A DNA stretch of 23,569 nucleotides from a virus: IMG/VR virus record IMGVR_UViG_3300031975_000142, positions 1 through 23,569 of that record; one strand, given 5' to 3'. The stretch's first letter is position 1. Each line of letters opens with the position of its first letter. Both the position numbers and the translations under genes were made by a program. The notes beneath the pieces are model-generated. The model made no database searches. It was not told the origin of the DNA and was given only the letters and a program-made list of their open reading frames with translations. Below are positions 15,727 to 23,569 of this stretch, piece after piece.

Positions 15727-17316
15727 TTAATATCCAAATGTTGGGTCTGACATTTGAAAGCCAGAACGTTGTTTTGAAGGATCATAATCCCATATAGAAC
15801 TTCTTGGTCTAGTCATTATACCGTAGCGTAAAGCGTCATACAAGTGATCTTCTGCGTGAGTATCTACATCTTCAGGGTTCTTTTTATCTAGCGGTATCGT
15901 AGGTATCTGTGCTATAGTGTTGGTGCAGGTGGAGAAGAACACGAGTCTAGGCTCTTCAGTGAACTCATCCACCTGCAACCTACGGTGTATCTCATTCTTA
16001 CCAGACACTCTAGATCCACGAGAGCGATCAGAAGGACGCCAACGGCAACCCTTCATGTTCATTTGCTCTGCTAGTGATGGTCCAGTATCGCCTCTGTTGT
16101 GCCAAAGTGATGAGTCCAAAACACCGTACCTCATTGTACCATCTTCTGCTTCTGCTTCTAATATCATGTCAGCTAAATCTGTAGCTGTAACCTTAGAACA
16201 GTATAACTCTCTGTAAACCACTAGTTGTTCATCTGGTGAAACAGCAAACCAAAGTACTCCTGTGTAAGAACCGTAGCCGTAGTCGCAAGCCCTGAACCTA
16301 GCCCATGATCTAGGAATGTCGTATGGGTCAACTACGTGTATGGCTCTGTTAAACTCAGGGAATGCTGCTCCTTCATTAGTATCCCAGTTACCTTCTAGTA
16401 ACTGCTTTCTCTGGTGCTCTGGCAATGATAGTAGCATTGCTTCGTAGTCACCGCTGTCTGCTAGGTATGGGTTATCAAACAAACTAGCAGGTATAAATCT
16501 ACGCTTAAACAAGGGCTGTCCTTCACGACTATGCCCTCTAGGAAATCTTATAGTCTCACCCGACTCAATGTTAGTAGCCCAGAATGGCTCATTTGCAGGT
16601 GAAGGGTCTATAAACATTTTCTTTACCCAACTATGTCCATTGCCTCCTGGGTTAGTAGTACCTCTCATGTACAAACCTAGCTGAGAGCTAAATGCTGAAC
16701 GAAGTCGTGACCTCATATAATCCCAAGCATAAGGAGTAGGCCACTGTGTAAGTTCATCAAAGCCAATCCAGTTAAACGCTTGTCCTTGATAGCGTGTCAC
16801 GTCCATGTCTTTATCTAAGTAAGACATCCACAGTCTACCACCTCTAGGTGCAATCCACTGTGATTTACGTTCACTCCACTTGATACCAGGTATTGCTTTA
16901 GGATAAAGCTCTTGACTCTTCTGTATAAGCTCTCTAAGTTCTTCAGTAGTATGGCGAACAAGTAGACCACTAAAGTTTGGATCGTTTAGACCATGAAGGG
17001 GGTCAGCAAGCATTGCAAAGCTCTTACCACCACCTGCTGCCCCTCCATACAAGACTTCTCTTTCAGATGCGGATAAGAAGCTTGTTTGTGGTCCTGGGTT
17101 TGGTTTAAACACTACTTCTTGAGCAATGTCAACATCAAACTCAGGCGCTTTTACTTCGGCTGCTACAACTTGTACTTCAGGCTCTGGCTTCGCTTGACTT
17201 GTTTGTGTAGGCTCCGATTCTTTCTTCTTCAAGGTTCTTGATTTCTTGTAACGTTTCTTGGAGCCGCTTGGCAAGCTTCCGCTTAATTGTAGCTGCTTTC
17301 TTACGTTTTCGCTCAA
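15727..17316 (-). CDS. terL: Large terminase, ATPase and nuclease part
   Basis: 529 residues from a TTG at 17316. Motifs in order: Walker A GGAAGGGKS at about 91-99; Walker B FNWIGFDE at 181-188; coupling motif GTTNPGG near 219-225; RNase H-like nuclease with Asp in CDYGYG near 345, VLDSSLWH near 400 and the final HAEDHLYDALRY. The conserved family region begins near residue 65 (EVVFKPNPGPQT). The first 60 residues in this frame are low complexity (KKESEPTQTSQAKPEPE). There is no ATG upstream of the ATPase core in this frame. A weak AAGGG precedes the TTG. The conserved N-terminal module lies in another frame at 17177..17602, so the protein may be made by frameshifting, as two chains, or the sequence may carry an indel. 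Confidence 0.9.
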   Translation of the reverse strand: MSENVRKQLQLSGSLPSGSKKRYKKSRTLKKKESEPTQTSQAKPEPEVQVVAAEVKAPEFDVDIAQEVVFKPNPGPQTSFLSASEREVLYGGAAGGGKSFAMLADPLHGLNDPNFSGLLVRHTTEELRELIQKSQELYPKAIPGIKWSERKSQWIAPRGGRLWMSYLDKDMDVTRYQGQAFNWIGFDELTQWPTPYAWDYMRSRLRSAFSSQLGLYMRGTTNPGGNGHSWVKKMFIDPSPANEPFWATNIESGETIRFPRGHSREGQPLFKRRFIPASLFDNPYLADSGDYEAMLLSLPEHQRKQLLEGNWDTNEGAAFPEFNRAIHVVDPYDIPRSWARFRACDYGYGSYTGVLWFAVSPDEQLVVYRELYCSKVTATDLADMILEAEAEDGTMRYGVLDSSLWHNRGDTGPSLAEQMNMKGCRWRPSDRSRGSRVSGKNEIHRRLQVDEFTEEPRLVFFSTCTNTIAQIPTIPLDKKNPEDVDTHAEDHLYDALRYGIMTRPRSSIWDYDPSKQRSGFQMSDPTFGY

Positions 17317-21923: not shown

Positions 21924-22277
21924 TTACTTAGGGTTTATTAAACCCATGTGATCTCTATTCATAAACTTAATAGTGTTCTCTAACAAGGCTAACCTTTGCT
22001 GTAGGGCAGTAATCTTGCCTATCGTATTAGTTAAGCTTTCTTGTTCTTCCCAAAGCTCATCTATTTCAGCAAACGCACCATCTATGTAGTCCATGTTCTC
22101 TTGCACGTCACGCTTTAAGTTGACGTTATCTTCTACAGCCATCTTACTAGCAAACTGCTGTACAGACTCTTCTAGGCTTTCTATAGTAGCAGCTTGCTGT
22201 GATACCCACCACACACCACCTGCTAGTTGCATACCCATTGCAGCTACAAGTGCTATAGGTAGTTTTAAATTATCCAT
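21924..22277 (-). CDS. Membrane-anchored coiled-coil protein
   Basis: 117 residues from the ATG at 22277; a GTG at 22283 would add two residues. One membrane helix (KLPIALVAAMGMQLAGGVWW) lies at the N-terminus, followed by a long coiled coil (QAATIESLEESVQQFASKMA; IDELWEEQESLTNTIGKITA; LQQRLALLENTIKFM). This topology, with the bulk on one side of the inner membrane, resembles an inner-membrane spanin or a tail/lysis accessory, but the Rz family motif is not seen. With the neighbouring signal-peptide barrel gene it could span the envelope. It overlaps the upstream gene by 8 nt. Confidence 0.65.
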   Translation of the reverse strand: MDNLKLPIALVAAMGMQLAGGVWWVSQQAATIESLEESVQQFASKMAVEDNVNLKRDVQENMDYIDGAFAEIDELWEEQESLTNTIGKITALQQRLALLENTIKFMNRDHMGLINPK

Positions 22278-22527
22278 ACTCACGTTCCCTGTCTGGATCT
22301 AGTACTTCGTACCTGGTTAACATACCTTCAAGATACATAGCACGTTCAACGTGGTCTAAGGTGTACCACTCACCAGTACGAGTATGTATTGCTTCCCTAA
22401 CGTAAAACACATCCGACTTAGGAATGTGTACCTTCCGTATAGCACGAGCATCATTGTTAGCTAGCGCATTGTAGAAATCAGTTAACACATCTTCGGATGC
22501 ATATAGTTGTACGCCTTTGTTACGCAT
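22270..22527 (-). CDS. Small conserved hypothetical, first gene of the leftward block
   Basis: 85 residues from the ATG at 22527; a TTG two codons upstream is less likely. MRNKGVQLYASEDVLTDFYN, then DARAIRKVHIPKSDVFYVRE, HTRTGEWYTLDHVERAMYLE, ending DPDREREYG. I recall this family from marine phages, with no known role. There is no clear ribosome binding site. A TATAAT at 22548-22553 on the minus strand would place the transcript start about 14 nt before the ATG, so the mRNA may be nearly leaderless. The candidate promoter at 22506-22533 overlaps its first codons. Confidence 0.65.
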   Translation of the reverse strand: MRNKGVQLYASEDVLTDFYNALANNDARAIRKVHIPKSDVFYVREAIHTRTGEWYTLDHVERAMYLEGMLTRYEVLDPDREREYG

Positions 22528-22533
22528 TGTCAA
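22506..22533 (-). promoter_or_regulatory. Candidate promoter overlapping the first gene start
   Basis: On the minus strand TTGACA at 22533-22528, 16-nt spacer, TACAAC at 22511-22506, followed by TA. It matches the pattern TTGACA-N16-TAYAACTA of the capsid promoter with one change. It would drive the genes from 22277 leftward. Part of the match is coding sequence, so confidence is lower. Confidence 0.4.
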
Positions 22534-23160: not shown

Positions 23161-23247
23161 TGTGATCACAAAATAGCATACCCCTCTGGATGTGATCACA
23201 AAATACACCCCTAGACGTGCATGTACACACATCACAATGTGATCACA
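23161..23247. repeat. Three-copy operator-like array TGTGATCACA
   Basis: The perfect 10-bp palindrome TGTGATCACA lies at 23161-23170, 23191-23200 and 23238-23247. The first two copies continue identically (AAAATA) and are exactly 30 bp apart, about three helical turns. A further half-element ATCACA at 23231 makes a second palindrome with the third copy. The half-site TGTGA is that of CRP-type regulators, but their usual 6-bp gap is missing. Confidence 0.65.
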
Positions 23248-23262
23248 AATATAGACAAGCAT

Positions 23263-23278
23263 TGTTTCACGTGAAACA
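23263..23278. other. parS: parS centromere site (exact consensus)
   Basis: TGTTTCACGTGAAACA is a perfect 16-bp palindrome identical to the consensus parS site bound by chromosomal ParB (Spo0J) in many bacteria. Chance of an exact 16-bp match in a window this long is of order 5 in a million with equal base use. It lies 16 bp after the TGTGATCACA array and 161 bp before the rightward gene. No ParA or ParB gene is visible in the window. Confidence 0.9.
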
Positions 23279-23349
23279 TTATGTGCATAGCTAGGTGTTG
23301 CAATTATGTCACCCACACAATAGCCCTTATTTATATAGCAAATATCAAA

Positions 23350-23412: not shown

Positions 23413-23428
23413 ATCAACTCAATAGGAG
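23413..23428 (+). repeat. 16-bp direct repeat containing the ribosome binding site (copy 1)
   Basis: ATCAACTCAATAGGAG here is repeated exactly at 23554-23569, the last bases of the window. Here it carries the AGGAGG that lies 9 nt before the start codon at 23439. The second copy falls inside the coding frame and probably serves the next gene. Confidence 0.7.
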
Positions 23429-23438
23429 GATTTACCAA

Positions 23439-23569
23439 ATGACTAGCGCAATATCATATATAGATGATTTAGATACATTAAATAAAATACTTGAGATATG
23501 CTCAAAACTTGGTGGTATGGAAAACATAAGAAAAGAAGCAACTAATAGAATTAATCAACTCAATAGGAG
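23439..23569 (+). CDS. Rightward gene, partial (early gene of unknown function)
   Basis: ATG at 23439 with an AGGAGG ribosome binding site 9 nt upstream. 43 full codons are visible: MTSAISYIDDLDTLNKILEI, then CSKLGGMENIRKEATNRINQ, LNR. It looks alpha-helical and charged, without a recognisable family. It is the only plus-strand gene seen and is divergent from the virion block, so it likely opens the early or replication region. The window ends before its stop. The parS and TGTGATCACA sites lie in its upstream region. Confidence 0.65.
   Translation, partial: MTSAISYIDDLDTLNKILEICSKLGGMENIRKEATNRINQLNR

Follow-up and report, generated by a model that had tools for sequence, protein, structure and literature searches.

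The locus described here raises the question of why a bacteriophage carries, in its divergent control region, an exact copy of the palindrome that serves as chromosomal parS in Alphaproteobacteria, and what use such a site might have on a genome in which no parB gene is visible. The DNA analyzed (hereinafter the window), a fragment of 23,569 bases from an IMG/VR virus record, comes from a marine virus infecting bacteria. The terminase, the portal, the homology of the structural module and the gene order identify it as an HMO-2011-type podophage, with the nearest isolates, CRP-603 and CRP-2, infecting Roseobacter. The terminase of the window is 89-92% identical to those of CRP-2 and CRP-603 and 73% identical to that of HMO-2011, and the portal and capsid proteins are consistent with a tailed phage of the HMO-2011 kind. 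The 54 kb record of CRP-2 starts with early genes at the left end, continues with leftward structural genes and closes with a non-coding right end; compared with this layout, the window covers the half with the structural genes plus the divergent control region but lacks the early/replication half, and represents less than half of a genome of about 54 kb. An integrase is reportedly encoded by all HMO-2011-type isolates (PMC8528129), which makes a non-lytic phase plausible; the integrase was confirmed in CRP-2 and in a relative that carries parS (G033), and the corresponding locus falls outside the window.

The control region spans about 0.9 kb of non-coding sequence between a leftward gene and the first rightward early ORF. 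In the rightward direction, three copies of the palindrome TGTGATCACA are followed by parS, by the promoter-like block GTTGCAATTATGTCAC and by the early ORF. The features relevant for the discussion below are:

15727-17316, minus strand: terminase large subunit (terL), the basis for the HMO-2011-type placement
22270-22533, minus strand: leftward border gene, 87 aa, homologue of CRP-2 gp73, the marker gene for locating the region in relatives
23161-23170, no strand: TGTGATCACA palindrome, copy 1, putative operator of a phage regulator
23191-23200, no strand: TGTGATCACA palindrome, copy 2, 30 bp from copy 1
23238-23247, no strand: TGTGATCACA palindrome, copy 3, 15 bp upstream of parS
23263-23278, no strand: parS, exact consensus palindrome TGTTTCACGTGAAACA, 16 of 16 bases matching
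23297-23312, plus strand: promoter-like block GTTGCAATTATGTCAC, starting 18 bp past parS
23439-23569, plus strand: first rightward (early) ORF, running off the contig end, with AGGAGG at 23424-23429

The leftward border gene has no Pfam or PHROG match. The TGTGATCACA palindrome is present in the control regions of 29 of 81 relatives (about 0.12 copies expected), often in arrays with a spacing of about 30-32 or 75 bp, and such an array probably is the operator of some phage regulator. The GTTGCAATTATGTCAC block is common to close relatives with and without parS and might be a promoter; a sigma-70 scan of the control region yielded no strong match, and promoter-like sites were no more numerous than in shuffled sequence. 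The contig ends (23554-23569) with an exact 16-bp repeat, ATCAACTCAATAGGAG, of the early-ORF leader (23413-23428), which may mean that the next gene has the same leader or that the contig broke at this point.

The palindrome at 23263-23278 corresponds to the parS consensus base for base, as originally annotated. Under Markov models of order 1-2, 6-9e-6 exact copies of the 16-mer are expected in the window, and 6e-7 in the control region alone under the order-1 model. Allowing up to three mismatches, no second parS-like site was detected in the window, and the site accordingly is a lone one as had been claimed; this does not hold for the clade, given that G033 has three such sites. The best reading of the sequence is that these 16 bp are a genuine parS, to which ParB would be predicted to bind.

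Recurrence of the site was assessed by gathering the regions upstream of the marker gene from about 110 loci, 81 of them distinct; many of these regions are short, so that absence is firm only in the longer ones, and the 54 loci included in a terL tree each cover at least 750 nt. Exact parS copies occupy this control region in the window and in L133, which belong to one control-region lineage, as well as in L136 (G008) and the G033 group (L004, L324, L325), compared with 3-6e-5 copies expected over the 81 control regions. In the terL tree, the parS-bearing rows require three separate changes that are forced by well-supported branches, and the row nearest to the window, L231, lacks parS; L133, in which terL is cut, was left out of this tree. 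Across the control region, identity between the window and L133 is 69%, but one stretch of about 50 nt, reaching from the last TGTGATCACA through parS, is exactly the same in both and could have been moved by recombination. In L136 and G033, the sequences flanking parS are unrelated, and the L136 site is not followed by the same downstream block. Of the three G033 sites, two are exact and the third has one mismatch. They are located upstream of an early gene, in the control region and inside terL, at distances of 1.3 kb and 6 kb, and all three are retained in the diverged sibling L324, in which the neighboring protein is 93% identical. The one-mismatch G033 site inside terL (L227, 7389-7404) encodes VSRET in a variable N-terminal linker.

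No parS was found in the control region of the examined isolates and sister contigs even with three mismatches allowed, the exception being a weak three-mismatch palindrome in CRP-9. The sister contig L234 has a TGCA-rich, parS-free interval of 88 nt from its last palindrome to the GTTGCAATTATGTCAC block, which indicates that in the lineage of the window parS fills a slot occupied by other sequence elsewhere. The expectation that related phages have the site at the same place thus stands for three terL-tree lineages, with different flanks, and fails for most relatives and for every isolate examined. Conservation of parS throughout the clade is accordingly rejected, and the site is dispensable. 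Because three lineages that are separate in the terL tree have the site in this control region, but with different flanks, the comparison points to an optional but repeatedly selected element rather than an accident.

The claim that no ParB gene is visible was borne out by profile searches in which the control genomes were positive as expected. The ParB_N domain (PF02195) is found neither in the window nor in the parS-bearing relatives G007, G008 and G033, and is not detected above the cut-off in 30 other relatives, 13 of them complete phage records; CRP-9 gave one sub-threshold match (14.9 bits against a cut-off of 26.3). No parA is named in the isolate annotations consulted, the source used for this gene. 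As the window represents less than half of the genome, the absence of parB from this phage is judged from its relatives. A phage-encoded ParB, sought with both PF02195 and TIGR00180, is rejected in the absence of matches above the cut-off, and we would not class this phage among ParABS phages. The best candidate binder then is the host ParB. Of 76 alphaproteobacterial genomes, which stand for the likely host group, 53 contain the exact 16-mer and none the reversed control. The same sequence, TGTTTCACGTGAAACA, is the listed parS of Hyphomonas neptunium (PMC7022226), and in Rhodobacter sphaeroides ParB1 is bound at the origin of chromosome 1 (PMC6315104). Recruitment of the host ParB, as proposed in the first-pass annotation, remains the best reading of an exact and recurrent site that matches alphaproteobacterial chromosomal sequence in phages in which parB was not found, with the binding itself being a prediction.

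The exact parS is not limited to this clade. At least 120 stretches in viral contigs contain it, whereas two shuffled palindromes with identical composition gave 5 and 0; the parS stretches were taken in scan order and are not a random sample, and some may be misassigned or prophage sequence. PHROG matches, one protein per parS contig, include terminases, major head proteins and replication proteins, indicating that many of the contigs are viral and diverse. Chromosomal-type ParB (TIGR00180) was not detected above the cut-off in 95 parS contigs (46, including the relatives G007 and G008, plus 49), which gave five weak matches. The sites are often clustered, with 3-5 exact copies in some contigs, and many of those inside ORFs encode VSRET or FHVKH. 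As a raw count, an integrase is encoded in only 3 of 29 long parS contigs; it is therefore rejected as a general mark of such contigs, and parS is not simply a trait of temperate phages. A second group of phages, in which terL starts with M[TA]TLxLDGxQIDIE, has 3-5 exact parS sites near the terminase gene in unrelated flanks, in the following clusters:

L017, 2657-3444: parS cluster of the second group
L044, 10535-11462: parS cluster of the second group
L053, 240-961: parS cluster of the second group

Complete relatives of this second clade (the distantly related isolates CRP-901 and CRP-902, and others) lack parS. A broader proposal, which we advance tentatively, is that many unrelated phages without a partition gene have a host-type parS in cis only, as a single site or as a cluster, and exploit host ParB and ParA, or SMC loading, for placing, sharing out or timing their genomes, a strategy that would be widespread and may be denoted 'centromere mimicry'.

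For the window, we favor, at about even chances, the interpretation of parS as a cis-only loading site for the host chromosomal ParB, the likeliest use of which would be partition or positioning of unintegrated genomes. Loading of host ParB at the phage site, the first step in this scheme, seems quite probable. In the infected alphaproteobacterium, ParB-CTP would clamp at parS and slide into the flanking control region, a partition complex would be built on the phage genome, and host ParA and ParB would position and share out unintegrated phage genomes while the phage is in a slow, carrier or pre-integration state. Second in likelihood, and compatible with partition, would be that this ParB complex controls the neighboring early promoter. 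Partition or positioning is considered somewhat likelier of the two because the spaced sites of G033, one of them in a coding region, resemble a centromere cluster more than an operator, whereas the promoter-like block that adjoins parS in the window keeps regulation open. Partition is opposed by the consideration that an integrating phage needs no partition site, and the location of parS near the promoter-like block would suit regulation equally. The binding and spreading of ParB, as well as the benefit to the phage, are extrapolated here from sequence comparison. Phage lambda carrying the P1 parS replicates and lyses cells that make CFP-ParB (PMC13190303), so that ParB on phage DNA need not have a strong effect or harm the phage.

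Among the alternatives, the strongest, although on balance unlikely, is that parS is a host-responsive operator: ParB, loaded 18 bp ahead of the early promoter-like block, would repress the divergent promoters or set their timing, in place of another regulatory element that sister phages have at this position. In both the window and L133, parS sits precisely in the interval that separates the last TGTGATCACA from the conserved GTTGCAATTATGTCAC block and that in L234 is TGCA-rich instead; this position fits the role, and ParB of Pseudomonas aeruginosa represses genes beside an inserted parS (PMC7022226). In Bacillus subtilis lacking Spo0J, however, expression of the genes adjacent to parS is unchanged (PMC7022226), and the wide spacing of the G033 sites, including the one inside terL, together with the missing downstream block in L136, indicates that promoter proximity is not general. 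It is less probable still that the replicated parS copies titrate ParB or load SMC on phage DNA and thereby disturb host origin segregation and the cell cycle: replicating phage DNA would present many sites and some viral contigs contain several exact copies each, but titration would favor arrays and the window has a single site. Recognition of the palindrome by some phage-encoded DNA-binding protein rather than by host ParB appears very doubtful. The genome is only partly sequenced, most of the early genes have no assigned function, and, judging from the TGTGATCACA arrays, the phage seems to employ its own palindromic operators; nevertheless, the match to the chromosomal ParB site is complete over 16 bases and recurs, also in unrelated viral contigs, and no ParB_N domain scores above the cut-off. 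Chance or an assembly artefact, compatible with the small number of relatives that have the site, is highly improbable given the expected count of about 1e-5, the recurrence in three lineages and the independent contig L133, in which the same site and flanks lie within an otherwise diverged region, and chance is rejected on the expected counts and the recurrence.

Several known systems resemble the favored arrangement, that is, a phage parS loaded by host ParB. The parS of chromosomal ParABS systems in Alphaproteobacteria, such as Hyphomonas neptunium and Caulobacter, is the same 16-bp palindrome (PMC7022226) and is clustered, with several sites in a few kb, like those of G033; here, in contrast, the site resides on a phage genome with no parB detected, in a minority of the relatives only. 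The parABS systems of P1 and mycobacteriophage RedRock likewise place a centromere-like site on a phage genome, with the upkeep of non-integrated genomes as a plausible function, but these phages bring both proteins, ParA and ParB, together with sites of their own, which in RedRock are arrays of 8-bp repeats (PMC7157519), whereas here a host-type site alone is present in a clade that has an integrase. The Staphylococcus epidermidis phage Lacachita also has an incomplete partition system, proposed to function in extrachromosomal maintenance, and is the converse case, with a parB-like gene but no ParA (PMC10286716), as opposed to a site without parB. In the lambda-parS labeling construct, parS on phage DNA is similarly bound by ParB supplied by the cell, giving visible foci (PMC13190303); that construct was engineered with a purpose-made ParB fusion, whereas the site described here is natural and matches the host's own ParB. 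CRP-2, CRP-603 and HMO-2011 share with the window the terminase, the portal, the gene order, the control region and the flanking gene, but none of the HMO-2011-type isolates examined has parS.

To our knowledge, the partition-bearing phages known so far bring both their own ParB and their own site. In the literature searched, mostly outside subscription journals, we found no report of a host-type parS in phages lacking ParB, nor of a phage clade that has repeatedly gained a host-type site without parB. For a phage with only the site of the host, 16 bp would suffice to couple its DNA to chromosome segregation in the host, and the excess of parS in viral contigs over the shuffled palindromes suggests that such borrowing may be common. 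If so, it would provide phages with a route to sense or use the host cell cycle, and the interplay between phage and ParB would be invisible to gene-based annotation.

A link of these phages to hosts or prophages was not supported by the one scan of genome contigs, which yielded for the most part phage contigs assigned to bins of marine MAGs, along with a distant match in Mesorhizobium, and no roseobacter prophage. HMO-2011-like contigs with the same names and lengths (L308-L311) are found in two marine MAGs, Flavobacteriales TMED123 and Neomarinimicrobiota MED589, and host claims based on such bins are therefore unsafe. Two additional genes are present in the window. The small protein encoded at 18481-18699 matches in position the DUF1127 gene of CRP-603, DUF1127 being otherwise a host-type family. 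The 225 aa protein encoded at 19702-20379 matches PHROG 3704 (ferredoxin, host takeover class) and is present in only some of the close relatives.
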